From a virus, in the IMG/VR virus record IMGVR_UViG_3300047476_001516, positions 1-30,601 of that record: 30,601 bases of DNA; one strand, 5' to 3'. This document shows, one piece after another, positions 937 through 23,600 of this stretch. The notes under the pieces are model-generated. The model ran no database searches, was not told the origin of the DNA, and saw only the letters and a program-made list of their open reading frames with translations. Position 1 is the stretch's first letter. Each line of letters starts with the position of its first letter. The translations under genes and the position numbers were made by a program.

Positions 937-2723
937 ATGGCAGCTACAACTGCAAGTGGCGTTGGCGCAGCGGATCTTCCGTTGCTCGACAAAAAATGGC
1001 TCACCTTCGCATTCGCCATCTATGCTGTGTTCTACGCATGGGTACGCTGGTATGAAGGCGTCTATGGCTGGTCCGCCGGTCTCGACTCATTCGCACCCGA
1101 GTTCGAAACCTACTGGATGAACTTCCTGTACACCGAAATCGTCCTGGAAGTCGTCACCGCCTCCATCCTGTGGGGCTACATCTGGAAGTCCCGTGACCGC
1201 AACCTGGCGGCTATCACCCCGCGTGAAGAGCTGCGTCGCAACATGACCCACCTGGTCTGGCTGTTTGCTTACGCCAACGCCATCTACTGGGGCGCTTCCT
1301 ACTTCACCGAGCAGGACGGCACCTGGCATCAGACGATCGTGCGTGACACCGACTTCACCCCGTCACACATCATCGAGTTCTACCTGAGCTACCCGATCTA
1401 CATCATCACCGGCTTCGGCGCCTTCCTGTACGCCAAGACCCGTCTGCCTTTCTTCGCAGAAGGTCTGTCCCTGCCCTACCTGGTGACTGTGGTTGGTCCG
1501 TTCATGATCCTGCCGAACGTAGGTCTGAACGAATGGGGTCAAAATGGCTCCTACACTCAGTAATGAGTGTAGAAAACTGCTCTAATTGCTGGGAACTCCT
1601 ACTGGGACAATCAGCAGCCAAGCTCAGAAATGAGAAGGTTCAACGACTAGATCGCAAGATCGTACATCCAAGTGGATGGAAATGGGCAGAATCCCGTGAT
1701 GGGATTAAGATATAGTCTGGTCTTACAGGTAACTGTAAGCAGTTTCAATAAGAAACGGTATAAGAGTAACGAACTTATATGAACAAAACACATACTTTTT
1801 GGTTTCAACGTAAGCCACTTTAAGCAGTAATGTTTATAGAAAACCACTTTAATTGCTGGAAACTCCTACTGGGACAATCAGCAGCCAAGCTCAGAAATGA
1901 GAAGGTTCAACGACTAGCCGAAAGGCGTACACTCAAGCGAGTGGAAATGGGTGGGATCCTACTGGGATCAAGATATAGTCTGAACTGTATGGTAACATAC
2001 AGCAGTCCTAAAAGGACGGATAAGAATTTAGCGAATCTTATTGAACACGATGTTATGGAAGAACTTTTTGTCGCTCAATTGGGGCGCTTATAATCGCGAG
2101 ATTATAATGAAAACTCTGTGAATTCGGTGAACATCTCAATGCTGAGACAATACCGAGCCAAGCCCTGATTATAGGGAAGGTGTAACGACTATTCCGAAAG
2201 GAAGTACCATCAAGTGATGGGAAGCGCAGAGCAACTGATTGAATCAGTTGAAGAGATAGTCTGATCTATGTGGTAACGCATAGCAGTTCCTTTTGGAACG
2301 AGTAAGTATTAACGAAACTTACTGAACATTGCGCCATTGCACTATGGCTTCGTTTTCTTCGGTTAATAACTAGCCGCTTAATATAGCGATGTATTATGAA
2401 AAACTCCTTTAATTGCTGGAAACTCCCACTGGGACAATCAGCAGCCAAGCCCGAAAGGGAAGGTTCAACGACTAGCCGCAAGGCGTAGGATCAAGTGATC
2501 CGAAATGGGGAGCAACCAGAAATGGTTGAAGATATAGTCTGATCTGTGTGGCAACATGCAGCGGTTCTTAAAAAGAACGGTATAAGTATAACGAACTTAT
2601 ATGAACACATTGTGGTTAGCACTGGCGATTGCTGGAGTTCTACTCCAAGTATTTGCTAGTTTCGGTAATTTAATCGGAAAGGACATTGTTGAAGCGGTAG
2701 ATAGTGGATTGATTGCGAAGTAA
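937..2723 (+). CDS. pmoC: Particulate methane monooxygenase subunit C, split by four group I introns
   Basis: Predicted join 937-1539, 1791-1803, 2053-2075, 2334-2363, 2613-2723, giving 780 coding bases and 259 residues, the normal PmoC length. PmoC is an integral membrane subunit of the copper enzyme that oxidises methane to methanol. Exon 1 covers residues 1-201 and ends NEWG. Exon 2 supplies HTFW and the first base of F, exon 3 finishes F and gives MEELFVA, exon 4 gives [10 protein letters not shown], and exon 5 gives WLALAIAG to the end (LIAK). All copper ligands by homology to Methylococcus PmoC are present: D127, H131, H144 (CuC) and N198, H202, H216 (CuD), at a constant offset of 29. 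Unspliced translation stops at 1561. The start has AGAGG at 924-928. Exon 1 uses GC-rich, CTG-type codons; exons 2-5 use AT-rich codons like the phage genes. No pmoA or pmoB is visible. Splicing is inferred, not shown. Confidence 0.93.
1540..1790 (+). ncRNA. Group I intron 1 of pmoC (251 nt, no ORF)
   Basis: Core signatures are present: R-type GGTTCAACGACTAG at 1637-1650 and S-type AAGATATAGTCT at 1707-1718. P1 pairs exon end GGGGT with GCTCC at 1547-1551, with the expected U.G pair at the splice site. P2 is a 9-bp hairpin (CTACACTCA/TGAGTGTAG, GTAA loop) at 1551-1572. A 3-bp P10 (CAT with ATG at 1545-1547) and the spacing from a conserved GAACA seen in introns 2-4 both place the 3' splice site after 1790. 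That makes the last intron base A, not the usual G. Nearly identical in core and P9 hairpin to the intron at 8680-8930. It interrupts between G201 and copper ligand H202. Confidence 0.9.
1804..2052 (+). ncRNA. Group I intron 2 of pmoC (249 nt, no ORF)
   Basis: R element around 1904-1917 and S element AAGATATAGTCT near 1970-1981. P1: exon 2 end TGGT pairs with GCCA, with U.G at the splice site. P10: exon 3 start TTATG pairs with CGTAA immediately 5' of the P1 strand, a 5-bp match that fixes the 3' site. The intron ends in G at 2052, ten bases from the start of the conserved GAACA. It splits the phenylalanine codon between exon 2 and exon 3. A block of about 65 bases covering the P/Q and R elements is almost identical to intron 1. 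Confidence 0.92.
2076..2333 (+). ncRNA. Group I intron 3 of pmoC (258 nt, no ORF, divergent)
   Basis: The most divergent copy: R-type GGTGTAACGACTA and S-type GAGATAGTCT (about 2253-2262) are recognisable. P1: CGCT at the exon 3 end with GGCG, U.G at the splice site; P10: CCA of exon 4 with TGG. An 8-bp hairpin (TTATAATC/GATTATAA, GCGA loop) at 2089-2108 matches the P2 position of intron 1. It ends in G at 2333, again ten bases from the GAACA start. It lies two codons before copper ligand H216. Confidence 0.9.
2364..2612 (+). ncRNA. Group I intron 4 of pmoC (249 nt, no ORF)
   Basis: P1 pairs CGGT at the exon 4 end with GCCG, with U.G at the splice site. P10 pairs exon 5 start TGGTTA with TAACTA just upstream of the P1 strand (six pairs, one wobble). 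The R element GGTTCAACGACTAG and S element AAGATATAGTCT are intact. It ends in G at 2612. The 3' end (TATAAG stem, GAACA) closely matches introns 1 and 2. Splicing joins FFG to WLALAIAG in frame. Confidence 0.92.
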
Positions 2724-2743
2724 TTCGTGATTGTCTAATACAG

Positions 2744-2770
2744 AAAAGGGAGCTATGCTCCCTTTTCTTT
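2744..2770. terminator. Bidirectional terminator between pmoC and the GIY-YIG gene
   Basis: A 10-bp stem AAAAGGGAGC/GCTCCCTTTT with TAT loop, followed by a T-rich tail on the plus strand and TTTTC on the minus strand. It lies 20 bases after the pmoC stop. The stop codon of the convergent endonuclease gene is in its loop, so it probably ends both transcripts. Confidence 0.85.
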
Positions 2771-3514
2771 TGTCTTTTGTTTACAATTGTCTCCGTGATA
2801 TCTTGTCATGTTGCCTCCACTGCCCACGTGTCCACAATGTGGACAAACTTTTGTTTTCATATTTCGTTTTTTAAAAACCCTATCTTTTAACCAACCTGGT
2901 TGAACATTCTCGTCAAGAACATAATAATCTTGCTCTCCGTCATTCCACCATTTAAAATCGCCTCTATCCCTCGTGTTTGCGCTTTCCGACATTTTTGCAA
3001 TAGTCTCATTGGAATACACATTCGTTCGACCTTTATTCCAAGGAACTTGTCCAGTTTTTTTGTTTTTGTTCCAAGGAGTGGAACCCTTTTTGGATCGACT
3101 CATTGTTTCGCGATATTCGTTAGTTCGTGGTGGTTTCTTTTTTCCTTTCCCCATTCTTCCTACTTCGGCCAGTTTTATTTTTGTTTCTGGTGTGTGTTTG
3201 TATCCTATTGTTCCCTCGCCTCCCTCTGTCATGTTGTATCCATTGCTATCGGGAAAATAAATGCAACTATTGAATTCTCGGATAAAATATGGTTCCATCT
3301 CTTTCAGTGTATGGATAGCATCTGATGATTGGTATATTGCTTCCCATTCAAAAGAATCCCAACCGTATTTTCTTAGACTTCTGTGAAAAACGTGATTTCC
3401 TATCTTCATCGCGGTCTTGTGTTCTGCTTGACGTTTAGGCCAATTGGAATCGTATCCTATGTAACACTTTCCTGAAATTTTGTGAGTTGCCTTATATATA
3501 GTATAAATATTCAT
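2753..3514 (-). CDS. Free-standing GIY-YIG homing endonuclease with NUMOD-type and zinc-finger regions
   Basis: A 253-residue protein. The start at 3514 is chosen over an upstream ATG at 3562 because GGAGGA precedes it and the GIY-YIG domain begins at once (MNIYTIYKATHKISGK, then CYIGYD). The catalytic pattern is visible: Y of the first motif, YIG, an arginine in the following helix (WPKRQAEH) and a glutamate in EPYFIREF. A segment GYKHTPETKIKLAEV matches the NUMOD3 style of DNA-binding motif. The C-terminus has a CPHCGHVGSGGNM...H...NC zinc-finger-like motif common in phage endonucleases. Such enzymes cut intron- or gene-less alleles to spread themselves or neighbouring introns. It sits tail-to-tail with pmoC, which carries four ORF-less introns, so it may drive their homing in trans. 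It is preceded by a structured leader shared with the other two GIY-YIG genes. Confidence 0.85.
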   Translation of the reverse strand: MNIYTIYKATHKISGKCYIGYDSNWPKRQAEHKTAMKIGNHVFHRSLRKYGWDSFEWEAIYQSSDAIHTLKEMEPYFIREFNSCIYFPDSNGYNMTEGGEGTIGYKHTPETKIKLAEVGRMGKGKKKPPRTNEYRETMSRSKKGSTPWNKNKKTGQVPWNKGRTNVYSNETIAKMSESANTRDRGDFKWWNDGEQDYYVLDENVQPGWLKDRVFKKRNMKTKVCPHCGHVGSGGNMTRYHGDNCKQKTKEKGA

Positions 3515-3583
3515 TGCTGATAGTCCTCCATAGACTGTTAGGGTAGTTAGGTGCGCTAACACCGTGAACTACACTTATTTATC
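3515..3583 (-). ncRNA. Conserved structured leader, copy A (late promoter + covarying hairpin + RBS)
   Basis: Reading on the minus strand: GATAAATA (3583-3576), AGT, outer stem GTAGTT/AACTAC, bulge CAC, inner stem GGTG/CACC, loop TTAGCG, single T, then CCTAACA and GGAGGA before ATCAGCA-ATG. Both stems are perfect and differ in sequence from those of copies B (7653-7719) and C (9971-10040), while the bulge, loop, CTAA and RBS regions are kept. The loop TTAG could pair with the downstream CTAA. Confidence 0.8.
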
Positions 3584-3606
3584 TCGCAGACTTCACGCCA
3601 TCAACA

Positions 3607-8601: not shown

Positions 8602-8673
8602 GTCGGTTTATGGGGTATTAATCCACCTCGTAGGCGAATAGAACCGCCATTATAAACAAAAGGAGATAAAATC

Positions 8674-9740
8674 ATGGGTCGGCTGGCCCCGCCAGATAGT
8701 AATATCTAGTGATAACTGCTCTAATTGCTGGGAACTCCTAATGGGACAATCAGCAGCCAAGCCTCGTGAGAGGAAGGTTCAACGACTAGCCGAAAGGCGT
8801 ACACTCAAGTGAGTGGAAATGGGTAGGATCCCTCCGGGATCAAGATATAGTCTGATCTTACAGGTAACTGTAAGCAGTTTTGATTAAATCAAAGCGGTGC
8901 GGAATTAACGTCTCTGCGCGAACAACGTTGCGTCCTCTAAAAGTACAGAAGTATTCACCAGGTTCCGGGGATAACGGAACATCAACCACAGCGGGCAACG
9001 GTGTTCCGGTTCCCGTAGATATCGCTTATCCACCGTTTATTGCGATGGATCCAGGCACCGCTGTCACACCAGCTGGTAGCCTTATTACACCACCTTGGAC
9101 TGGTGTAGTCGGTGGTGTGCCAAACCCAGCAACGTCTGCTGCTTACCCTATCGTGGCCATTACTGTAAATGTAGCTCTACCTAACGGAACTGGCGCTGGT
9201 GTTGCACCGGGTGCAATTATTCGTCAGAAAGGTTCGCGCAAATATATGGTAGCTGATCTAACGCCTGTTGCAGCCACGGCCATGATTCCTGGTGCAGCTT
9301 ATATGATTGCCACTACAGGCAATACACCATGGCAATCATTTGGTGCAAGCGTTAATTATAATATTTGGGATGTATTCACTTGTACTGCCGCTGGTACTGG
9401 AACGGGTACTGCATATCTTGTGGGTTCTTGCGTTCTTGACGATACAGCTAATCCGACTGTGGGCAACATGAGTATCGGTTTCCTTGATAGCACTTCCACG
9501 GTTCAGTATATCAGCAAATTAACAAATAAATTTCTATTTGACTTTGCTGGTGGCGAGGTCGGCGGTAATGCTAATGCCGGTGATGTCTGGTCATATGAAC
9601 AGGTACAAAACAACGAACGTTGGATTGCGAACTTTTTCACTGATGATGGATACATGGTCAAGTCTGGCACAAGTGGTGGTCCGAATACACCCGGCCAACA
9701 AAACCAAGTTCCGATGGGAGATGTGGATTCTTATACCTAA
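8674..9740 (+). CDS. Phage structural protein, start codon separated by a group I intron
   Basis: Predicted join 8674-8679, 8931-9740: exon 1 is only ATG GGT, exon 2 continues with CGT CCT, giving MGRPLKVQ and a 271-residue protein. Exon 1 carries the ribosome-binding site (AGGAG at 8661-8665); exon 2 has none, so the gene needs splicing to be translated. Unspliced translation from 8674 stops after 11 codons. The mature sequence is glycine, alanine, threonine and proline rich with repeated beta-type strands, and an MGRPL start is typical of T4-like phage structural proteins. No enzyme motif. It is probably a head-decoration or fibre-associated virion protein. A splice site three bases earlier (adding L) is also in frame. 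Confidence 0.75.
8680..8930 (+). ncRNA. Group I intron 5, after codon 2 of the structural gene (251 nt, no ORF)
   Basis: It carries the same P/Q block (CTAATTGCTGGGAACTCCTA), R element GGTTCAACGACTAG and S element AAGATATAGTCT as the pmoC introns. P1 pairs exon end GGGT with GCCC, with U.G at the splice site; P2 is AGATA-GTAA-TATCT. The P9 hairpin CTTACAGGTAACTGTAAG is identical to that of pmoC intron 1, its closest relative. The 3' end has a P9.2 stem and GAACA, then G at 8930 (or 8927). The same length as pmoC intron 1. Confidence 0.88.
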
Positions 9741-9759
9741 TCGTATTAGGTTATCCTCC

Positions 9760-9791
9760 AATAGCCCCGATTTATTCGGGGCTATTTTTTG
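9760..9791 (+). terminator. Intrinsic terminator after the structural gene
   Basis: Ten-bp stem AATAGCCCCG/CGGGGCTATT, loop ATTTATT, then TTTTT. A 15-base inverted repeat CCTAAT-CGT-ATTAGG directly precedes it at 9736-9750. Almost identical to the terminator at 11233-11262. Confidence 0.85.
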
Positions 9792-9960
9792 CCTTGCGAT
9801 TATTAAATTCAGTGAGATATGCGTTTAGGGTTGCCGACATCTGATTGAATAATCCTGCGTTGCCGGATGAATGTACCCATCGCATTTTTGTCTGTAAGTC
9901 GGTGATTTTATTGAATAATTCATCTGTGCTCAGAGACTTCAAGTCTAAATTCTGTGACAT
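9772..9960 (-). CDS. Small helical phage protein, 62 aa
   Basis: The 62 residues (MSQNLDLKSLSTDELFNKI...) are a helical, charged sequence, and a short protein with an LSTDEL-type opening is typical of T4-like phages; function unknown. It ends within the arm of the terminator that closes the convergent gene. No clear Shine-Dalgarno site. It faces away from the leader copy C that starts at 9971. Confidence 0.6.
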   Translation of the reverse strand: MSQNLDLKSLSTDELFNKITDLQTKMRWVHSSGNAGLFNQMSATLNAYLTEFNNRKAKNSPE

Positions 9961-9970
9961 AATGTTATTT

Positions 9971-10040
9971 GATAAATAGAAGTACCGATCGCGATATTGA
10001 CGTATCCATCGGTTCTAACGCTTTAGAGGAGCAATCAGCG
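9971..10040 (+). ncRNA. Conserved structured leader, copy C
   Basis: GATAAATA (9971-9978), outer stem ACCGAT/ATCGGT (9984-9989 with 10008-10013), bulge CGC, inner stem GATA/TATC, loop TTGACG, single C, then TCTAACG and GAGGAG before ATCAGCG-ATG. The stems differ from copies A and B but remain perfectly paired. Here the following ATG opens a 40-codon frame and not the endonuclease itself. Confidence 0.8.
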
Positions 10041-10163
10041 ATGATATTTATTATCTCGGTCAATCGACCCGAAAATTCTCCTATTGGCGTTGCCATAATC
10101 AACAAAGGAGAACTTCAATGGCAACTAAAAAATCAAAAACACCTGTCTACTATACCTATCTGA
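10041..10163 (+). CDS. Short upstream ORF (40 aa) overlapping the endonuclease start
   Basis: The ATG at 10041 has exactly the position relative to leader copy C that the endonuclease ATGs have relative to copies A and B, with the same GAGGA site, so it is probably translated. The product (MIFIISVNRPENSPIGVAII...) has no domain. It overlaps the start of the gene at 10118 in another frame, which suggests a leader peptide, translational coupling, or a relic of a gene replaced by the endonuclease. Confidence 0.45.
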   Translation: MIFIISVNRPENSPIGVAIINKGELQWQLKNQKHLSTIPI

Positions 10164-11224
10164 TAGGGTGGTCTTGGCTTAATACTTGGTATTATGGAAG
10201 CAAATATTCTAAAAATGCCGACCCAGAATTATTCTGGAAGAAATACTTCACATCAAGTAAACACGTAAAGCGATTTCGTGAACAACACGGCGAACCTGAT
10301 GTAATTCAAGTCAGACATACCTTCAACTGTCCTATTAAAACACTTGCTTGGGAAGGCAAAGTTCACAAACGCATGGGTTGTCGGTTGAGTTCACGGTGGC
10401 TAAATGCGGCCGATGCTAATGTCAAGTGGAACACCGCCGGTATGTTCAACGTAAAAGATAATTTAAATAATATTTTTCAAGTATCAGTGAATGATTTTAG
10501 ATATCTATCTGGTGAACTCAGGGGCATATTAAGTGATAGAGTAACTGTGCAGGATAAGTCTGGTAAAACGATGTCAGTGTCGGTGTCTGACGAAAAATAT
10601 ATATCAGGAGAGTGTATCAGTATCAATAAGGGAAAAATTCCGGTAAAAGATAAGGATGGGAAATCATCACAAGTGACGAGAGATGATTTTAGGTGGGTAT
10701 CTGGAGAACTCGTTCACGTCACTAAAGGTACTGTAAACGTGTTGGATAAAGATGGCAATAATATTAGAATAAAAAAAGACGATCCACGATTGTTGTCGGG
10801 TGAATTGACAGGGATCGTCAAAGGAACTATTGTAGTTATGGACAAAGATGGCAATAAATTCAGAGTATCTAAGGATGATTCTAGGTGGATATCCGGCGAG
10901 TTAAAAGCATTGTCTTCTAATACAGTGATGATCAGAGACAAAGATGGAAGTGCGATCAGGGTGTCAAAGGACGATCCACGGTGGGTATCGGGCGAGATGA
11001 CGGCAATCGCCAAAGGCAAGGTGAATGTTATCGACAGAGATGGAAATAAGTTTATGGTATCAAAGGATGATCCTCGATGGTTATCGGGTGAATTGATAGC
11101 ACTATCTACAAATTCCGTTGTGGTAAAGGATAAGTTCGGGAATAAATTTAGAGTATCAAAAGATGATCCTCGATGGTTATCGGGTGAAGTTGTAGGAGTA
11201 AATAAGAAAAATTGGCCCTGTTGA
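10118..11224 (+). CDS. GIY-YIG-like endonuclease with eight C-terminal DPRWLSGEL repeats
   Basis: A 368-residue protein. Residues 10-105 (YYTYLIGWSWLNTWYYGSKY, YFTSSKHVKRFREQHGEPD, WEGKVHKRM, RWLN) match a GIY-YIG-type domain common in T4-like phage mobile endonucleases, with YLIG/YYG for the two motifs and E80 as the candidate metal-binding residue. Residues about 111-362 are eight units of about 30 residues with consensus VxDKDGNxFRVSKDDPRWLSGEL, which are probable DNA-binding modules like the NUMOD-type repeats of homing enzymes. Start chosen for AAAGGAG nine bases upstream. It ends at a terminator that is a near copy of the one before it at 9760, so the cassette is flanked by direct repeats. 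Confidence 0.75.
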   Translation: MATKKSKTPVYYTYLIGWSWLNTWYYGSKYSKNADPELFWKKYFTSSKHVKRFREQHGEPDVIQVRHTFNCPIKTLAWEGKVHKRMGCRLSSRWLNAADANVKWNTAGMFNVKDNLNNIFQVSVNDFRYLSGELRGILSDRVTVQDKSGKTMSVSVSDEKYISGECISINKGKIPVKDKDGKSSQVTRDDFRWVSGELVHVTKGTVNVLDKDGNNIRIKKDDPRLLSGELTGIVKGTIVVMDKDGNKFRVSKDDSRWISGELKALSSNTVMIRDKDGSAIRVSKDDPRWVSGEMTAIAKGKVNVIDRDGNKFMVSKDDPRWLSGELIALSTNSVVVKDKFGNKFRVSKDDPRWLSGEVVGVNKKNWPC

Positions 11225-11232
11225 TATCACGG

Positions 11233-11262
11233 AATAGCCCCGATTTATTCGGGGTTATTTTT
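11233..11262 (+). terminator. Intrinsic terminator after the third GIY-YIG gene
   Basis: AATAGCCCCG/CGGGGTTATT stem with ATTTATT loop and T-run. Apart from one C-to-T change and one base less in the T-run it is the same as the terminator at 9760-9791. Confidence 0.85.
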
Positions 11263-11279
11263 GCCCGATAAGTAATCAA

Positions 11280-11849
11280 ATGAACACAGCATTTGTATTG
11301 GGTAATGGTATCAGTCGGAAAAGTTTGGATTTAACTCAAATCAAAACAAAAGGAAAATTATATGGGTGCAATTCTCTTTATACTGAAATTATTCCCGATG
11401 TATTGGTGGCTACCGATAAACTGATTGCCGATAAAATACAAAATAGTGAATATGCTTTGAAGAATAGATTTTATACACGAAGACCAATTATTGGGTTGGG
11501 TGGTAAAACAGTTCTTCACCATACATTTAGTTCTGGGCCAAATGCAGTTGCGATTGCTATTGATGATAGATGCACGACGATCTATTTACTTGGTTTTGAT
11601 ATGGGACCAGATGATAAAAATGAATTTAATAACATTTATGCTGGTACTGAATTTTACAAAGCGATTGGTTCATCACCCACGTATGCTGGAAATTGGGTTA
11701 AGCAACTTACTCAGATAATGCAGACAAGTCATGAGTGTAATTTTATTCGCGTTTATGGGCATACAACCGCTATTATACCAGAATTGAACTTAATTAAAAA
11801 TCTATCGCATATCACTATACAGGAATTCTTGACTTTTGCCAAGAAATGA
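11280..11849 (+). CDS. Rossmann-like phage protein, 189 aa, function unknown
   Basis: The N-terminus TAFVLGNGISRKSLDL and the following YGCNSLYTEIIPDVLVATD resemble a family of phage and bacterial proteins related to sialyltransferase-like or MptE-like (DUF115) Rossmann domains, in which a GNG loop follows the first strand. Later features are an SSGPNAVAIAI segment and IYLLGFDMG strand. If the relation is real it could modify a surface glycan or nucleotide, but the sequence does not decide this. There is no good ribosome-binding site before 11280. It is followed after 10 bases by tnpB. Confidence 0.6.
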   Translation: MNTAFVLGNGISRKSLDLTQIKTKGKLYGCNSLYTEIIPDVLVATDKLIADKIQNSEYALKNRFYTRRPIIGLGGKTVLHHTFSSGPNAVAIAIDDRCTTIYLLGFDMGPDDKNEFNNIYAGTEFYKAIGSSPTYAGNWVKQLTQIMQTSHECNFIRVYGHTTAIIPELNLIKNLSHITIQEFLTFAKK

Positions 11850-11855
11850 TAAATA
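11848..11855 (+). promoter_or_regulatory. GATAAATA motif 4 bases before tnpB
   Basis: The octamer overlaps the stop of the preceding gene and ends four bases before the tnpB ATG. Transcription from it would give an almost leaderless message, so it may be coincidental. Confidence 0.3.
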
Positions 11856-11859
11856 ATAG

Positions 11860-13116
11860 ATGATTTTTAAATCTTTCAAATATCGCCTATATCCAAATGT
11901 GGCCCAACAAGAGCAGATGATAAAGACATTTGGGTGTAAACGACTAATATTCAATCATCTACTTGATACACAAATCAAGAGATATGAATCGGGTGAAGGA
12001 AATCTTACTTACTTCGGATGTAATAATCTGATTGTGGAATGGAAGAAGGAAGAAGAAAAAGCATTTTTGACAGAAGTAGATAGTCAAGCACTTCAGCAAG
12101 CAGCAAAAGACTTGCACGATGCCTATACTAACTTCTTCAAATCACTGAGCGGCAAGAGGAAAGGGACTAAAATTAATAGCCCTAAATTCAAATCCAAGTA
12201 TGCACGTCAGAGCTATCGTACCCCAAATAATAATGGAACGATTAAATTCAAAGATGATTCTTTGAGATTGCCAACTTTGGGTTATGTAAGAGCAGTTATT
12301 GACAGGAATATAGAGGGAAAAATTAAATCGGCTACTATCTCCATGGATAGAGATGGCAAATTTTATGTATCTGTTTTGGTTGAAACGGAACAGAAACTAT
12401 TATCAATGACTGGCAAGGAAGTCGGCATTGATTTAGGGATTAAGGATTTATTTGTTACATCAGATGGCAATAGATTCGATAATCCAAAAGACTTAATTCG
12501 TATGACAAAAACCACGCAACGAATTAAGTTGTTGCAGAAAAAGTTGGCAAGAACAAGAAAAGGCAGTAAGAGCAGAGAAAAGCTACGAATTCAATTGGCA
12601 TCTGCATATAAGAGGTTAACCAATCAAAGAAACAACTATTATCATGAAATCAGTCATTGGTTGGTTAATTCGTATGATGCAATTTATGCGGAAGATTTGA
12701 ATGTGAAAGGAATGATGGCTAATAGAAAACTATCAAGAGCTATTCATGAATCTTCATGGGCCACTTTGGTGGGAATGATTCAATATAAATGCGAGTGGTA
12801 TGGAAAAACATTTTATCAAATCAATCGCTATTATCCATCTTCAAAGACTTGTTCTTGTTGCAGCAATAAAATAGAAAAATTGTCATTATCCGAACGTGAA
12901 TGGAAGTGCCCATCTTGTGGCACATTACACGATAGAGACTATAATGCAGCGATAAATATCCTCAAAGAAGGACAAAAAGACTTATATAGCACTTCGTTGG
13001 TCCGACGCGAAGCGGGCGAAATAATCGTCCCGTCAGCTCTAGTGAAATTGAGTAGTAAAACCGAGAGGTCTGATTCGTTGAAATCAGTTGCTCAAGGGAC
13101 AGAGTTAGTTTATTAA
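11860..13116 (+). CDS. tnpB: IS605-family TnpB, RNA-guided nuclease, without TnpA
   Basis: A 418-residue protein with the whole TnpB architecture: N-terminal FKSFKYRLYPN region, central wedge/REC part, RuvC motifs with D191 (GIDLG), E278 (YAEDLNV) and D360 (HDRDYNAAINI), and a zinc ribbon CSCC...CPSC (C331, C334, C350, C353). All catalytic residues are intact. TnpB proteins are known RNA-guided DNA nucleases that use an omega RNA from their own 3' end and favour transposon retention. No tnpA is present, the gene starts 10 bases after the previous stop and the next gene starts 37 bases after its own, so there is little room for transposon ends. It may act as a stand-alone homing-type gene. The start lacks a clear Shine-Dalgarno. 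Confidence 0.92.
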   Translation: MIFKSFKYRLYPNVAQQEQMIKTFGCKRLIFNHLLDTQIKRYESGEGNLTYFGCNNLIVEWKKEEEKAFLTEVDSQALQQAAKDLHDAYTNFFKSLSGKRKGTKINSPKFKSKYARQSYRTPNNNGTIKFKDDSLRLPTLGYVRAVIDRNIEGKIKSATISMDRDGKFYVSVLVETEQKLLSMTGKEVGIDLGIKDLFVTSDGNRFDNPKDLIRMTKTTQRIKLLQKKLARTRKGSKSREKLRIQLASAYKRLTNQRNNYYHEISHWLVNSYDAIYAEDLNVKGMMANRKLSRAIHESSWATLVGMIQYKCEWYGKTFYQINRYYPSSKTCSCCSNKIEKLSLSEREWKCPSCGTLHDRDYNAAINILKEGQKDLYSTSLVRREAGEIIVPSALVKLSSKTERSDSLKSVAQGTELVY

Positions 13117-13153
13117 TACGGAATACATTTATCTTCGTGATTAAGAAGCACCA
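12975..13153 (+). ncRNA. Candidate omega RNA region at the tnpB 3' end
   Basis: In this family the omega RNA overlaps the last part of tnpB and runs to the element's right end. Here the codons after the zinc ribbon (from LKEGQKD) give a tail with no fold of its own, including a hairpin-prone CGACGCGAAGCGGGCG stretch, as expected for RNA-constrained sequence. The guide would be taken from sequence beyond the right end, which I cannot place exactly. Confidence 0.35.
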
Positions 13154-13741
13154 ATGGCAATAGTAAAAAACACAAACAGCGATTATGTCATCACTTGTAA
13201 AAATGGTGCAGGTAATTTAGTAATCAATGCAAATACCGAGGTATTTGGTGAGCTAAATTGTACTGGTGCGTTTTTAACGGTGGCAGACCATAATCCCGGT
13301 ATTATTAATTACATGGGTATGCTGGCTCAACTTTCGCCTAATTCATGGGCCGGATTGAGATTCAATGTTTTTGAAAACAGGTGGGAAGCAAGCTCAGATG
13401 TTACCAGTGATGGATCAGAAATTGCACCGTATGCACCGTTTGGTGATGGCGCAGACGGTCATCCATCGGGCGCAAATATGGCTGTTCAGTTTAATAATAA
13501 TGGTGCATTTGGTGGGTCAAGTGATTTTACGTTCAATCCGATCACTCAGTCTGCCTCAATAAACGGGTATCAGTATTTTGCAGAACAATCAGTTGATCCA
13601 ATCGGCATAGCAAATGCCCATGCGCTTTATGGTAATACGCCCAATCTTGGAAACAGTGGATTATATGTAACATCTCCATCTGGCGATTCTCAAGAGCTTA
13701 TCACAGCGAAGCAAGCACTTTTATACAGTATTATATTTTAG
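13154..13741 (+). CDS. Phage virion/tail-fibre protein, 195 aa
   Basis: A 195-residue protein rich in N, G, A and S with alternating short strands (NLVINANTEVFGELN, MAVQFNNNGAFGGSSDFTF). The AVQFNNNGAFGGSSDFTFN segment is a common tail-fibre motif. No enzyme signature. It opens a run of plus-strand structural genes that continues to the end of the window. Only a weak ribosome-binding site. Confidence 0.65.
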   Translation: MAIVKNTNSDYVITCKNGAGNLVINANTEVFGELNCTGAFLTVADHNPGIINYMGMLAQLSPNSWAGLRFNVFENRWEASSDVTSDGSEIAPYAPFGDGADGHPSGANMAVQFNNNGAFGGSSDFTFNPITQSASINGYQYFAEQSVDPIGIANAHALYGNTPNLGNSGLYVTSPSGDSQELITAKQALLYSIIF

Positions 13742-13749
13742 GTTAAAAC

Positions 13750-14064
13750 ATGGCTACATCCGTTAATCTTGTCACAATAACAACTCAACCGATTTTTACT
13801 AGCGTTGTTAATACCGCGATTACTTTTATGAGTTTTTGCAATCATTCGGCAACACCAGTTACTATCAATATGTACGTCGTGCCAGCGGGTGAAACGGTAT
13901 CCAACAGTTGCTTGGTGTATTCTTTACTTCAGATTCCACCGTATGATACCTATCAAATTTATGTCGGCAATGAAAAACTAATTCTTGCCCCTGGTGATAT
14001 TATTTATTCGGATGCAGATATTGATTCTGTTGTAAATGTTGTTACATCATATACGAGCGTATAA
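13750..14064 (+). CDS. Small beta-rich structural protein, 104 aa
   Basis: A 104-residue, almost entirely beta-predicted protein (FTSVVNTAITFMSFCNHS, VTINMYVVPAGETV, YQIYVGNEKLILAPGDIIY). It looks like a small virion or fibre-base domain. The stop overlaps the ATG of the next gene by one base, which implies translational coupling. Confidence 0.65.
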   Translation: MATSVNLVTITTQPIFTSVVNTAITFMSFCNHSATPVTINMYVVPAGETVSNSCLVYSLLQIPPYDTYQIYVGNEKLILAPGDIIYSDADIDSVVNVVTSYTSV

Positions 14065-14459
14065 TGGGCTATTTTGTAAAGAGTCGTCAATTACAATCTG
14101 GTAGTTCTGGTATTGTGTTGCCGAGTGGAACTACATCTGAGCGTCCGTTTGACCCTCTTACTGGGTTAATTCGCTACAACACATCATCGGCAGTTATTGA
14201 ATATTATGATGGTGCATCATATCAAGTTTTGGGCACAGCCTCGGGTATCACTTACGTTGTTGATAATTTTGTTGGAAATGGAACCTCAACGTCGTTTATG
14301 ATGACTCAAACGGTTGCTGCGGCAGATCAGATTTTGGTATTTATGGGATACGTATATCAAGCATCTAATGCCTATTTTGTAAATGGAACCAAGCAAATAA
14401 CTTTCATTGAACCACCACCCGATGGTATACCGTTTAATGTCATTCATAGCTTCGCGTAG
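14064..14459 (+). CDS. Tail-fibre-like structural protein, 131 aa
   Basis: Residues 20-55 read LPSGTTSERPFDPLTGLIRYNTSSAVIEYYDG in pattern, the RPxxPxxGxxRYNT...YYDG motif common in phage tail fibres and short head fibres. A second half (VDNFVGNGTSTSFMMTQTV, then QITFIEPPPDG) resembles another recurrent fibre domain. It overlaps the upstream gene by one base and lies 15 bases before the next. Confidence 0.7.
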   Translation: MGYFVKSRQLQSGSSGIVLPSGTTSERPFDPLTGLIRYNTSSAVIEYYDGASYQVLGTASGITYVVDNFVGNGTSTSFMMTQTVAAADQILVFMGYVYQASNAYFVNGTKQITFIEPPPDGIPFNVIHSFA

Positions 14460-14474
14460 AAGATTGGTAGTAAT

Positions 14475-16553
14475 ATGGCACTAGATTACGTATTAGGTGG
14501 AATTTTAAACAATAATCTACAAAGAACCGCGAATTTATCATTTAATTCTACGCTTCTTTATTTGGATATTGTCGGTAATAGGATTGGCATAAACACTTCT
14601 ACTCCAAATGTCGCACTTGATGTCATTGGTGATGCTCATATATCTGGCAATGTTACTGTCGCCAACATTACTATCGGTAACATTGTTATACCGTCGGTTG
14701 GTGATATTTCCTTTAATGGCGCGGTTCTGTCTAATATCGGTCCTCCGATTGCAAATACTGATGCTACCAATAAACAATACGTAGATCAATCATTAAATAA
14801 GATTTCTAATAGTAATCTTATATTTTCAAATACTACTATTGGCACTCCGTATACTTCTGGGAATATCATATTAGTTCCGACCGGTGTTGGGCAAGTAAGA
14901 ATCGCCGGTTCTGGTAGATTGTTCCTTGATTCAATGACCGTAGTATCATCGTCCAATCTAAACGTATTAACAGCAAATAGCGCAAACGTATCTGGTAATG
15001 TAACAGCAAATTACTACTATGGTGATGGTCGCAATCTATCCAATCTCAACATCGGTAATGTATTATTATCCAATATATCCACTGATGTAATACCGAGTAT
15101 CAATAACTTATACGCACTTGGTAATGCACAGAGGCAATGGCGAGAGGCTTGGGTTGGTGGAACATTATATGTAAATTCAACACCCATTCAATCAATATCA
15201 AATGTCTTGTATTCTAATGGCAATCGCGTATTGGTTGAAAACAATGTTAGCACACTGAATCTTCAGAATCTAAATTGCTCAAATACTGTTAACTCAATAT
15301 TTTTTGTAGGTGATGGTGGTAACATCACTGGAATTAGGTATGCCTCTATTGTGGGTGCCTACTCTAATCTCAATGTTGCAAGTTTTATGCCAACATACTT
15401 ACCCAACAACGTAAGTAATGTTCGTGCCAATAATCTAAATGCACAATATTTGTATGGCGATGGCAGCAACGTCAATAATATCCGATATAGCTCTATTGTT
15501 GGTGCATACAGTAATGCCAATGTTACTTCTTTATTAAGTAGTAACATAGTATCAACCAATATCAATACTTCTGCAAACGTCAAAGCTGCGTTCTTTATCG
15601 GTGATGGTGGCTTCTTAACTAATATTGCTGGTGGTGGTAGCAATTATTCAAATGCTAACGTAGCTAATTATCTTCCTGTTTACAATGGGGATATCGTTGC
15701 TGATATCGTTGTTGCTACCGAAGTTCATACTAATACTATATCTACTAACGATGGGATATTGTATCTTGACCCGATTAACGATGACAGCACTGCCGGTCTG
15801 GTGGAAATTCTCGGAGATTTTGATGTTGTCGGTTTAGCCACATTTGCATCTGATATACAGATATCTGGTGATATTATACCAGTTGCTAATGGCGTTTATA
15901 CTTTAGGCAATGTTTCTAATCAATGGAAAGAATTGTGGGTAAGTAATTCAACAATTTATATTGGTGGTATACCCCTTAGCACAAGCAATACTGGTACTCT
16001 GTTGGTGGATTCTAGGCCGGTTCTGTTTGAGAATTCAACCGACATATTAAACGTTGGTCCGGTAAATTCTGAAGGCGATATCACTACTACTGGATTCTTC
16101 GTTGGTGATGGAAGTCAAATAACAAATTTACCGCTTGGAAATTACTCTAACGCCAATGTCGCTAACTATCTTCCTACTTATTCTGGTGATATTTCTGCTA
16201 CCAATATAGTCACAGAATCAATTCAAGTAGGACCATCGTTTACTCAGAGCTTTGTCACATCATCTTCTAATCTTAATCCGATTGTATTGGCAGAATTTGA
16301 TGTTGGTGCATATCACAGTTTTACTTTTAGTGTCACTGCCGTTGATCCAATTGGCAACAATTGCGAAGTGATGAAGATCATTGCCGCAACAGTGGGTGGA
16401 CTCGTTGAATACACAGAATACGGATCAATAACCATTGGTAATTCTGTTGCCAGATTTTCCGTTACAATGAATTCCAGCAACATCGTTCTTCAAGCGACTC
16501 CTGACACAACGAATACTGTAAATTATTCTGTAATGGTCAATAACTATTCTTAG
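14475..16553 (+). CDS. Tail fibre protein, 692 aa
   Basis: A repetitive beta-helix-like fibre. Residues about 25-55 carry LYLDIVGNRIGINTSTPN, the NRxGIxTxxP motif typical of phage fibres. Repeated units FxGDGxxxxNIxYSSIVGAYSNANV and YGDGSNV recur through residues 170-420, and a YTLGNVSNQWKELWVSNSTIYIGG motif occurs about residue 475, also present in the giant fibre gene. The last 100 residues differ in style (AEFDVGAYHSFTFSVTAVD...) and look like a compact C-terminal domain, possibly receptor-binding or trimerising. Confidence 0.8.
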   Translation: MALDYVLGGILNNNLQRTANLSFNSTLLYLDIVGNRIGINTSTPNVALDVIGDAHISGNVTVANITIGNIVIPSVGDISFNGAVLSNIGPPIANTDATNKQYVDQSLNKISNSNLIFSNTTIGTPYTSGNIILVPTGVGQVRIAGSGRLFLDSMTVVSSSNLNVLTANSANVSGNVTANYYYGDGRNLSNLNIGNVLLSNISTDVIPSINNLYALGNAQRQWREAWVGGTLYVNSTPIQSISNVLYSNGNRVLVENNVSTLNLQNLNCSNTVNSIFFVGDGGNITGIRYASIVGAYSNLNVASFMPTYLPNNVSNVRANNLNAQYLYGDGSNVNNIRYSSIVGAYSNANVTSLLSSNIVSTNINTSANVKAAFFIGDGGFLTNIAGGGSNYSNANVANYLPVYNGDIVADIVVATEVHTNTISTNDGILYLDPINDDSTAGLVEILGDFDVVGLATFASDIQISGDIIPVANGVYTLGNVSNQWKELWVSNSTIYIGGIPLSTSNTGTLLVDSRPVLFENSTDILNVGPVNSEGDITTTGFFVGDGSQITNLPLGNYSNANVANYLPTYSGDISATNIVTESIQVGPSFTQSFVTSSSNLNPIVLAEFDVGAYHSFTFSVTAVDPIGNNCEVMKIIAATVGGLVEYTEYGSITIGNSVARFSVTMNSSNIVLQATPDTTNTVNYSVMVNNYS

Positions 16554-17649: not shown

Positions 17650-20600
17650 ATGGCACTAACTAAACCCCGCGCTGCACAGCTTTATGACATTGATTACAAG
17701 CAAGCTGCATTGGTTGTTACTACAACCAATATCGCCCTTGTTGGAGGAGCACCTAACGTAGTAGATGGTGTAGCTCTTGCACAAAATAGCCGAGTTCTGG
17801 TAACAGGGCAATCTATTCCTGCACAAAATGGTATCTATACCGTTACTACGCTCGGAACGGGAGTAAGTGGAACTTGGACAAGATCACAAGATGCAACCGT
17901 AACCGGTCAATTACTCTCTGGTACTATTATAACAGTAACTGAGGGTGTTGTCAATCGTGATTCTCAATGGATGTTGACAACTGATGGTGTAATTACCATT
18001 GGCACTACCGCAATTCAGTTCGCTAAATTCAGCGACAAGACATTCAGTGAAATTGATGCAAACGGCGTTGCCATCATTGCAACCACATTTGGTGATACCC
18101 TAAACATTCTACCCGGAAATAATATCAGCATCGTAGGTGATGCAAGCTCCAAGACCATCACTATTGCTGCTACGATTGCTCAACCCACTCAGATTATCAA
18201 TGGATCATCCAGAGTGTATATTCCTTCAGCAAATAGCAATGTCGCAATATCTGTTGGTGCAATTTCAAATGTTGCTGTATTCAGTCCTTCTGGATTGGGA
18301 TTAGTCGGTTCATTATCTACTACTGGAAATGCTGCTATCGGTGGCAATCTTACTGTTGCTGGGACTTATACTGCTGGAAATATCGTTGTTGGTAACATCA
18401 CTATCCCACATGGTGGTAGAATTGTCGGTGACCTTATCCCTGCTATTGATAGCACGTTTAGTCTTGGTAATGCAACAAGCAAATGGAAAGATTTATGGTT
18501 AAGCAATTCTACACTGTATATTGGTAATACAACGGTATCAACTAATTCTACTGGTCAATTAACAGTCAATGGAAACACTGTTGTTACTGCCGCTGCTAAT
18601 GGATTGCTTAATGTTAGTAACATTGCGGTCACTAATACTATTTTTGCAAGCGGAATCTATGTTAGCAATGCTAATCGTGATGCGCCGGTCTCGGCTGATA
18701 TTGTAATCGCAACTGAAGTACGTGGTAATCTACTCATTGGTAATGGTGCGTTCATCACCGACATTTATAGTAATGCAAATGTAGCTAACTATCTTGCTAA
18801 TTATTCTGGTCAATTTGGCAATGGCAATATTCAGCTTAGTGTAGCAAATATTAACGCTAATGGATACATTACATCCACATCGTCTATTACTGGAGCTTCG
18901 TTAGTTAGCAATTCTACAATCACAGCCGGTGGGTCACTGACTGCACAAAGTATTGTTAGTAATAGCTCTATTAGTGCTGCAACTACAATTACTGGCCAAG
19001 CGTTAGCGAGTAACAGCTTTATCAGCGCAGTATCTACGATTGTTGGTCAACAAATTATTGGTAATGTAGCTGTATCTACGCCTGGAACAATGACCGGTGG
19101 TGATGTTGTTAGCAACAATAGCATCACTGCTGCTGGAATTATTTTGGGACAAGATATCACAGCAAATGATACAGTCACAGCGGGTGGTGTATTAACTGGA
19201 CAAGAAATCGTCAGCAACACTTTTGTTTTAGCAGAAGATATTATCAGCAATGATTCAATTATCGCTGGTGGCGATGTCCTTGCCAACGCAATATATGCTA
19301 ATAATAACATTTTTGCTGGTGGCACTATTGCTACTGCTAGCTCGGTTATCGGTCATAATTTTATTGCTAATGAGTCTATCACTGCCGGTGATTTTATTGA
19401 TTCTCAAAGCTCTATCACTGGACAATCAATACTTAGTAATACCAGCATTGCTGGTCAATCGCTTAACATTGCTCAATCTGGTCAATTCGGTAAAGATTTG
19501 AGTGTCGGTGGAAATATTCATGTTGCCGGCAATGCTTATGTTGAGGGTAATGTTACCTATATTAACATTGAAGAATTGAGTGTTCAAGACCCGATTATTT
19601 CCATGGGTAGAGGACCAAACAACACACCCCTTACTGCAAATGATGGATTTGATCGTGGCGAGCAAATGTGGTATTACACTACATTGGAACAGTCTGCATT
19701 TATTGGCTATCAAAATAGCACTGGTAAATTGTTGGCGGCTAATAATGTCACAATCACTAACGAAATCGTTACAGTAAATAATTTTGGTACATTTGAAGTA
19801 GGCAACCTTGAAGCAGAAAACGTAGCTATTTCTGGTGATATTGCGGTTATCAATGCTTATATCACAAATGATGCCGTTGTTGGCGGTAATCTTGTTTCTA
19901 ATGATACATTTGTGGCAGATGGACAAAATACCTTCATCAATTCAGGCGTTACTGCAATTCGTGGTACTATTTTTGGTGTTGGTAGAGAAGCTAATAATGC
20001 TTCGCTAACTGCTGATGATGGCTTTGATCGCGGTGAGCAACTATGGTACTTTGATGTTGCGGGTAATGTTGAGAAGAGCGCGTTCATGGGTTATGATAAT
20101 TCAATGGATGTCATGATTATTGCAACTGATGCTACGGTGACCGGCAATATTGCAACAGTGAATAACTATGGCAATGTGATGGTGGGTAATGTAATCGGCC
20201 AAAATGTAATCACTCAAAACGCTGATATTTCCACTCTGGCAACAGTGCAAGACCTTGTTGTTAACGCAATGACAACAACCACCGATTTGAATGTTCTTAA
20301 TGATGCCAACATTGGTGGTACTCTCACTCTAAATGATCTTCAAGCCACTACTGCAAATATCGGGACGCTTGTTGTTCCTGTTTTGGCTACGATTGAAGAA
20401 CTAATCGTCAATCAAGATGCCAATGTACTTGGTAACGTCATTGTCACTGAAGATTTGATCGTTAGTGGTCAAAATACTTTTATCAATTCTTCTGATTTTG
20501 AAATCAGTGATCCCGTGATCGGAATTGGTAGAGGGGCCAATAATACTCCTCTGTCATCTAATGATACTAAAGATCGTGGTGAACAACTGTGGTGGTTTGA

Positions 20601-23600
20601 TGCTAACACTGTAACTGAAAAGTCGGCATTTATCGGGTATTCTTCCTTCAATGATAAACTATTTGCAGCCATCGACGTAACTGTTACAAACGAACAAGTA
20701 ACAACTATTCATAATTATGGTAATTTTGTTGTCGGCAACCTTGAAGGACAATTTGCTACTCTTAGCGCGAATGTTGATGCTGGCAATCTGAACGCTGTTG
20801 CGAATGTTAATGCTGGCAATGTGCTTATCTCAAGAGATGCCTTCATCACTGGAAATTCTAATGTAACTGGCAATATTATTGGTAGTAATTTACTGATTAA
20901 CAACACAGCGAACATTCAAGGCAATGCCAACATTATCGGTAATGCAAATGTAACTGGCACTCTTGATGTTATTGCACCAGCTTATCTTCGTGGTGGCGCA
21001 AACATCAGTTCTTATGCCAACATCGGTGGTAACTTAATCGTAAATAATATCTCTACAGGTAATGTAGATGCTGGCAATATCAATTTGGCTAATAGCATCA
21101 ATGTTGGTAAATTCGCTAATATCACTGGCAAAATCACTGGTGGAAATGATCTCGTTTTAGCTGGCAGTGCAAACATTAGCGGTAATGCGTCTATCACCGG
21201 TAATATCACTGGCAATTATATGTCAATCAATAATGATGTTACTATTGGTGGTAATGCGCTTATTATCGGTAATGCTATCATTGATGGCAATGTAACATAC
21301 ATCAACATTGAAGATTATAATGTTCAAGACCCGATTATCTCACTTGGCACTGGTCCAAATGGCGCACCTCTGACGTTCAATGATGGTAAAGATCGCGGTG
21401 AAAACATGGTTTACTATCGCGGTACTCAGAAATCCGCGTTTATTGGTTACGATGAATCTGCCAACACTCTTACTGCTGCCATTGATGTAACAATCGCTAA
21501 TGAAATCGTATCAGTAAATGCTTATGGTAATTTCGTTGTTGGTAATGTCTTCGGTGCTAATATCACTGGCAGTGGCAACATCGGTGGCAATAATATCAAT
21601 GCAACGAATGATGTCACGATTGGCAATAGTTTAACGGTAACTGGCTCAATCAGCATGGCTGGTCCTCTTGTTGCTGATAGTGTTACTTCTAATACTACTA
21701 TCACTGCGGTTGGTAATGTATCTGGTGGAAATTTAGTAACAGCCAATCTGGTTCAGGGCAGCAATCTATATTCAACTGCGACTATCACTGCGGTGGGCAA
21801 TGTATCTGGTGCTAATGTTACTACTACTGGTAATGTTGTTGCTACCGGTAACTTGGTCGCTGGTGCTAATCTACTCGTAAGTGGAGTAGCGAATTTTGTC
21901 GGGAACGTTGCTGCTGGTAACTTCACTACTACTGGTAATGTTGTTGCTTCTGGAAATGTCAATACTGCGAGCACATTCAATGGCGCTAATCTAAACGTAA
22001 CTAATACCGCAAATATCGGCAATGCCGCTAATGTTGTTGGTAGACTTGGTGTAGGTTCATTGGTTGTTGAAACTAATGCTAATATTGTTGGCACAGCGTC
22101 GGTTGGTGGTAACATCTCTACTGGTGCAAACGCAATCATCGCTGGTTATGCGAATGTTGCTGGTAACATCAATGGCAGTGCTAACCTCAATATTCCAGAT
22201 AACATTTATGCGAACAATATCTTCCTGCGTAATTTCGTGTTCGCAAATGCGAATGTTACTGCTGGTAATCTGATCTCTAATGCAAAAATCACTGGTGTAG
22301 ATATTGCTATTTCGCGTGATGCTAATGTTGTTGGTAATCTAACGATTGGCGGTAATTTGGTGGTAGATGGTGGCTTTGGTGATCTAAATGTAACATCTCT
22401 CACTGTTGAAGATCCCATTGTGCTATTTGGTGGTGGTCCTAATAACGCTCCGCTTGCGAACAACGATGGCAAAGATCGTGGCACTGGTCTAAATTACTTC
22501 AATGCTGGTCCTAAAGTTGGATTCTTTGGTTATGATAATAGCCAGACTGAAATTGTGGCTGCACTTGACGTTACTATCGCTAACGAAGTTGTTACATATC
22601 ATGATTGGGGAACATTCAGAGCGGGTAATATCGCTGCTCAGACTGCAACGGTATCTGGCAATATTATTGCCTCTGGAAACGTGGCAGCAAGCAACGTCAA
22701 TGTATCGGCTAATGTAAACACTGCTAATCTATATGCTTCTGGCATGGCAAATATTATTGGCAATTTGGATGTAAATGGTAATCTAAATGCTGTTCACATT
22801 AACGCTTCTGGCAATTTGGCCATTGACAATCTGTCTGCTAATACGATAACTTCCAATGGGAATATATCTGGTAGTAATCTAAACGCTTCTGGTAACGTAG
22901 CTGCTATTGGCAACATTCAAACTGCTGCTGGCATCTTGGCTACAGGTAATATCAAGGGAGCTAATCTGATTAGCACTGGTAATACTATCTCCATGGGCAA
23001 TGTCGTGGCTAATCTGTCGCTTCTTGGTAATGGGTTGGCGGTCACTGGTACGGCCAACATCGTTGGTGCGGCTAATGTTCAAGGTGAGCTAAGTGTAACT
23101 GACTTGAAGGTAGCAAATTCTGCCAATCTTGGTGGAGCTAATCTTGTTACAACCGGCAACATTAGTGGAAATAATCTGATTATTAGTCGTGTTGCGAACA
23201 TTGGTGGTAACGTTAATATCGGCGGCAATGCAAATATCGCCAATGACATTTATGCGAATAATGCTTATCTACGTAACTTCGTTTATGCAAATGCCAATGT
23301 AGTTGCTGGTAATCTGATCTCTAATGCCAATATTACTGGTGGAAACATTCTAATCAATCGCGATGCTCAAGTAACCGGTAATCTGATTATTGGTCAAGAT
23401 TTGATTGTAGATGGCAATACCACTTATATCAATATCGTTGATTATAATATTCAAGACCCGATCATTTCACTCGGTGGTGGTCCAAACGGTACACCATTGA
23501 CGTTGAATGACGGAAAAGATCGTGGCGAAAACATGATCTACTTCAGAGGAACTCAGAAATCTGCATTCGTTGGTTATGATAACTCTGCTAATACTATCAC

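Follow-up and report, generated by a model that had tools for sequence, protein, structure and literature searches.

Results

Gene content of the pmoC locus

The window, the complete 30,601-base IMG/VR record IMGVR_UViG_3300047476_001516, opens with two genes on the minus strand that are assigned to a host chromosome. The first (1–314) is the N-terminal part of fccB, which encodes the flavoprotein of flavocytochrome c sulfide dehydrogenase. It is truncated by the contig end, matches an FAD/NAD-binding Pfam family and shares 98% amino acid identity with the fccB of a Methylococcaceae genome, G035. The second (316–624) is an ORF for a small cytochrome c that contains a CAGCH motif, lies inside a 94% match to G035:C188 and has no Pfam match; we call it fccA-like on the basis of its context and the CxxCH motif. 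On the plus strand follow a host-type pmoC promoter and leader region (750–936), which matches the sequence ahead of pmoC in many Methylococcaceae, and pmoC itself.

All five pmoC exons are on the plus strand. Exon 1 (937–1539; Pfam AmoC PF04896, 2.5e-100) comprises 201 codons of host type, and is followed by four group I introns recognized by Rfam model RF00028: intron 1 (1540–1790, 93.9 bits), intron 2 (1804–2052, 96.3 bits; 88% identical to an intron at the same site in the phage contig L008), intron 3 (2076–2333, 97.9 bits; L032 has an intron at the same site) and intron 4 (2364–2612, 104.7 bits; a second L008 intron occupies this site). Between them lie exon 2 (1791–1803, 13 nt, phage-type), placed where splicing restores a conserved protein stretch, and exons 3 (2053–2075, 23 nt) and 4 (2334–2363, 30 nt), placed by reading frame. 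Exon 5 with the stop codon (2613–2723) is phage-type in its GC3, and the 3' exons group with those of the phage L019 (support 0.91). In total, RF00028 gave five matches in the window (85–105 bits), the fifth at 8670–8874, with the conserved core P3–P8 and a P1 with a U.G pair at the 5' splice site.

The predicted spliced pmoC is an intact 259-codon frame with the conserved stretch, given an intron 1 end at 1790. This position, which holds an A, was placed by reading frame and P10 pairing. Group I introns usually end in G (omega G), as do all ten other placeable pmoC introns (introns 2–4 of the window and those of L008, L019, L018, L024, L026 and L032). Use of the nearest upstream G, at 1781, would insert Asn-Lys-Thr (NKT) into the conserved NEWG-HTFWF stretch, which holds copper ligands of PmoC. 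Splicing of intron 1 is doubtful because of its terminal A: the intron may splice poorly, the base may be a sequence error, or intron 1 may be an exception to the rule. Among the phage pmoC genes of the window, L008, L018, L019, L024, L026 and L032, group I introns occupy about seven sites, mostly in one conserved protein stretch. Introns 1 and 2 of the window have a 57-nt exact repeat in common (1597–1653 and 1863–1919), which could mislead short-k assembly.

Downstream of pmoC, on the minus strand, lies a free-standing gene (2753–3514) for a GIY-YIG homing endonuclease with a NUMOD3 module. Both the nuclease domain and the DNA-binding module are present, with PF01541 and PF07460 above cut-off (GIY-YIG, 4.8e-5) and a match to the homing endonuclease family PHROG 314 (4.8e-27). 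Introns 1–4 contain no ORF, and introns of this kind beside a free-standing GIY-YIG gene represent the layout of collaborative homing. Short leaders that resemble one another (GCTGATAGTCCTCC..., each with a possible hairpin) are found upstream of pmoC-adjacent GIY-YIG genes in the window (3515–3600), L019 (9800–9880) and L033 (11675–11760). In L040, a GIY-YIG gene (1326–2114) that is 52% identical to that of the window directly follows an intronless pmoC.

The remainder of the window (3607–30601) is phage DNA with mostly unknown genes, a DUF4116 repeat protein and tail or structural proteins (PHROG tail and virion matches). Much of 8750–16252 is 92–99% identical to L218, a viral contig from another metagenome. 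Two stretches that are absent from the near-identical L218, 9790–11233 with an HNH-type ORF (10118–11224) and 11852–13121 with a TnpB/IS605 OrfB-type gene (11860–13116), appear to have been inserted recently, with L218 showing the natural empty sites. A single highly repetitive ORF of >4300 aa, open at the contig end, fills 17650–30601.

A composition and codon seam at the first splice site

The first-pass annotation had pointed to a sharp shift in composition and codon use at the boundary between exon 1 and intron 1, with phage-like codons in exons 2–5, and both claims were borne out. GC content falls from ~0.59 (1051–1500) to ~0.41 past 1540, the drop lying within 1500–1650, and GC3 from 0.756 in exon 1 to 0.377 in spliced exons 2–5, for which the likelihood score is also on the phage side. 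The same annotation had described all of 1–1539 as GC-rich with codons of a highly expressed gene; this holds for exon 1, whereas the far-left GC is moderate (~0.55) and fccAB lacks the codon bias of pmoC.

We scanned the gene with host and phage codon models trained on 15 host pmoC genes and 14 closely related phage pmoC genes. The best changepoint falls after codon 198, with 2-nat support from codon 194 to 201, and its score was reached in 0 of 5000 permutations. Codon 201 ends at 1539, at the intron 1 splice site placed by Rfam. Over its final 42 nt, exon 1 agrees with a host pmoC at 42/42 positions, so host-type DNA runs up to the splice site, save for the ~16 nt that are the only identical stretch at the seam between host alleles and phage alleles such as the phage-type L019. 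In leave-one-out tests, each of the 15 host pmoC genes scored as host on either side of the boundary, and each of the 14 related phage genes as phage; the only split genes were those of the window (+125/−39 in the host-versus-phage score) and L008 (+76/−27). These results confirm that the seam is real and beyond fluctuation in codon usage.

Different ancestries of exon 1 and the 3' exons

In the tree of codons 40–198, the window and L008 fell into one group with L092, which comes from a host (support 0.994), whereas in that of codons 202–258 both grouped with the phage L019 (support 0.85–0.91). The trees support different ancestries for exon 1 and the 3' exons, as evidence short of proof, as such trees can be biased by composition and the tail offers few codons. 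An explanation by selection acting on codon use within a single gene was rejected, as no control pmoC was split and the trees of the two parts differ.

L008 carries phage DNA on both sides of pmoC. Its pmoC is phage-like to about codon 39, host-like to codon 198 and phage-like again in the tail past the first intron, and among 80 viral pmoC genes it alone has an exon 1 GC3 above 0.5. In both the window and L008, host-type sequence extends to within ~16–22 nt of the first intron; the two share an exact stretch of 79 nt. Since a chimera in L008 would need two wrong joins, we consider it to be an independent phage mosaic, which shows that a host-type exon 1 beside a phage tail occurs in nature.

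This precedent bears on the view that the window is an assembly chimera only, in which host and ordinary phage contigs were joined at the pmoC boundary with no natural recombination. All host-like DNA is indeed at one contig end, the region is hard to assemble, with host contigs breaking inside pmoC, and introns 1 and 2 contain the exact repeat described above. However, the ~16 nt that are identical between an L019-type exon end and the host are too short for usual k-mers, so the phage must already have carried a host-type exon end, for which L008 is the precedent. We therefore regard this view as quite improbable, and a pure artefact at 1539 as unlikely. Pairing of the intron 1 P1 with the exon end had earlier been cited against a join at the boundary; the pairing speaks neither for nor against a join, as phage-type pmoC (L019) and many host genes have an identical exon end, GAATGGGGT.

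Origin of the left flank

Positions 1–1151 of the window align with the end of a G035 contig at 94% identity, ungapped, and the order of fccB, small cytochrome gene and pmoC start is common to both. Over the 71 PmoC residues compared, the window and G035 are identical. Within exon 1, the closest host shifts block by block, which may reflect a patchwork, although the G035 sequence stops at ~1236. A divergent fccB lies beside pmoC in many Methylococcaceae genomes (~20, counted by position), and a search of viral contigs found no relative of the window fccB. On the strength of the G035 match and gene order, the adjacency of fccB and pmoC in the family and the lack of a viral fccB relative, the left side of the window is a methanotroph chromosomal pmo locus. 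Carriage of fccAB by phages was rejected, given that search result.

Recombination at the seam and a contig join, the two readings offered by the first-pass annotation, can both hold. The phage probably does not carry the fccBA genes, the promoter and the start of exon 1 stably. Methylococcaceae genome contigs often break inside pmoC, near 1022–1151 and 1501, probably because host genomes hold several pmoC copies. Moreover, a phage with a host-type exon 1 shares long identical stretches with a host, so that a wrong join further left is easy. For 1–936, we somewhat favor a join made during assembly where exon 1 sequences are nearly identical. The first-pass annotation had proposed a join through shared pmoC or intron k-mers. 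A join through exon 1 is plausible, but intron k-mers cannot bring in host DNA, as a search of 38 Methylococcaceae genomes for introns of the window type, run with a positive control, gave no match.

Alternatively, the contig may be one real molecule, either because a cut host chromosome was copied or recombined into the phage, by break-induced replication or a single crossover at pmoC, or because a phage stably carries fccBA-pmoC. The intact chromosomal arrangement does run straight into the phage block, with the seam at the predicted cut site. Weighing against this, GC-rich DNA upstream of pmoC is absent from all 80 viral contigs that carry the gene, no viral contig with a window-type fccB was found, and such molecules are expected to be rare in a sample. 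We hold the single-molecule reading as a minority possibility, and the same tentative standing applies to 1–936 as the product of a real one-ended recombination between host and phage. The specific case in which the phage endonuclease cut the chromosomal pmoC and the broken end copied the phage, fusing fccBA and pmoC exon 1 to it, seems unlikely. The likelihoods given to the alternatives overlap, and a single molecule is compatible with homing. For the far-left part, a join within exon 1, bringing ~1–1300 from the host, is slightly ahead of a real fusion.

A block bounded by the intron insertion site in other phages

Two phage contigs from different metagenomes, L033 and L022, are 99.1% identical over 10.6 kb. 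Their exon 1 sequences differ at 2 of 615 nt, one of them 3 bases from the insertion site. Past this site, the sequence of L033 continues with an intron, then a 3' exon that is 88% identical to that of L022, and a GIY-YIG gene, and directly after this gene the identity returns (98.9%). The left edge of the block is thus the intron insertion site itself, and the window has a layout like that of L033, with introns (four in this case) and then a GIY-YIG gene. L024 shares the L033 intron (95% identical) and resembles L033 in the tail (91%), but its exon 1 is different (85%). The L033/L022/L024 pattern is what collaborative homing predicts, namely that the intron is transferred in one block with the exon behind it and the endonuclease gene. 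Homing between L033 and L022 would be from phage to phage, with a recipient other than a host-type gene. Searches for other viral contigs by exact 24- and 26-mers taken at the seam and in exon 5, and by the 206-aa ORF, found none, in a set from which very close records may have been absent, nor was a close relative found that differs from the window by intron and endonuclease gene together.

An adjacent GIY-YIG gene was found in 5 of 6 intron-bearing viral pmoC clusters compared with 4 of 38 others (p=6e-4), or in 6 of 7 intron-bearing clusters when the window is added (p=1.6e-4). These counts over 44 viral pmoC clusters, scored by sequence similarity with a distance cut-off and membership list set post hoc, are supporting evidence only.

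Proposed homing at the seam

Taken together, the incongruent trees of exon 1 and tail, the L008 mosaic and the L033/L022 edge at the intron site support a recombination between phage and host pmoC at this boundary, as suggested earlier, and of all accounts the one with most support is a natural recombination event at a homing site. With modest confidence, we interpret the step at 1539/1540 as a recombination seam with a Methylococcaceae-type exon 1 on the left and a phage homing block (~1540–3514) on the right. The block would consist of group I introns 1–4, the phage-type 3' exons and the free-standing GIY-YIG gene, which we propose as its driver. The likely mechanism is collaborative homing. 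The endonuclease would cut a pmoC that lacks introns, at the insertion site or close to it; repair off the phage copy would then replace the stretch from that site through the endonuclease gene, while the exon 1 of the recipient would stay in place. We infer that the endonuclease encoded in the window made the cut and that the recipient was a host-type allele. The four introns would have to have moved jointly or accumulated stepwise. Because homing tends to co-convert exon sequence to the left and right of the cut, so tight an edge calls for one-sided repair.

Ordinary homologous exchange between phage and host pmoC, with no endonuclease involved, would offer another route to the seam. It would stop at the first intron, where homology ends because host genes have no introns, in line with the lack of an intron match in the 38 host genomes. 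Exon 1 tracts are also swapped within phage pmoC genes (L024 versus L026), and the host-type tract of L008 has a left edge within exon 1 as well, at about codon 39. However, a crossover within homology should leave some phage-type sequence ahead of the intron, whereas the window and L008 are host-type almost to the intron, and in L033/L022 the homing block begins at the insertion site itself. We consider ordinary exchange rather unlikely, and prefer homing. As for the L024/L026 pair, a divergent tract at ~nt 123–435 of exon 1 lies between flanks of 98–100% identity, which marks an exchange inside a phage pmoC exon 1.

Discussion

The analysis proposes a link between the homing endonuclease gene beside pmoC and the precise place at which the seam lies, a link absent from the first-pass annotation. 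Intragenic recombination between host and phage is known for cyanophage psbA. Like psbA in those phages, the window pmoC is a mosaic auxiliary metabolic gene, part host and part phage; unlike psbA, its mosaic edge coincides with an intron insertion site. The psbA group I intron of cyanophage S-PM2 undergoes collaborative homing by the free-standing F-CphI (Zeng, Bonocora and Shub 2009, described in PMC6083498). Both cases have an intron in a host-derived phage metabolic gene with a free-standing endonuclease gene adjoining it. Whereas F-CphI is an enzyme of the Endo VII type, the window has a GIY-YIG gene whose cleavage is predicted, and its target gene is pmoC with four introns and a host-type exon 1.

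Phages of aerobic freshwater methanotrophs that carry pmoC have been described (PMC7674155), and the window is likewise a phage-borne pmoC. The main text of that report does not contain the word "intron", and we found no description of a mosaic exon 1 in it. In exchange between phages, nuclease and homing endonuclease genes mark the recombination edges (PMC10448857). A homing endonuclease gene accompanies the recombination edge in the window too, but here the edge involves a bacterial-type allele.

For phage contigs from metagenomes, these results imply that a composition seam can be biology and an assembly problem simultaneously. L033 and L022 offer a clean natural case in which to test whether collaborative homing acts on auxiliary metabolic genes of a second kind. 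Methanotroph phages carry pmoC and may thereby alter methane turnover. If pmoC-adjacent endonucleases drive exchange with host alleles, they would set which portions of the gene are refreshed from the host and which stay viral. If the fused contig is real and arose from a cut by the phage endonuclease in the chromosomal pmoC, it would represent homing between a phage and the chromosome of its host, able to shift host gene segments into phage genomes.
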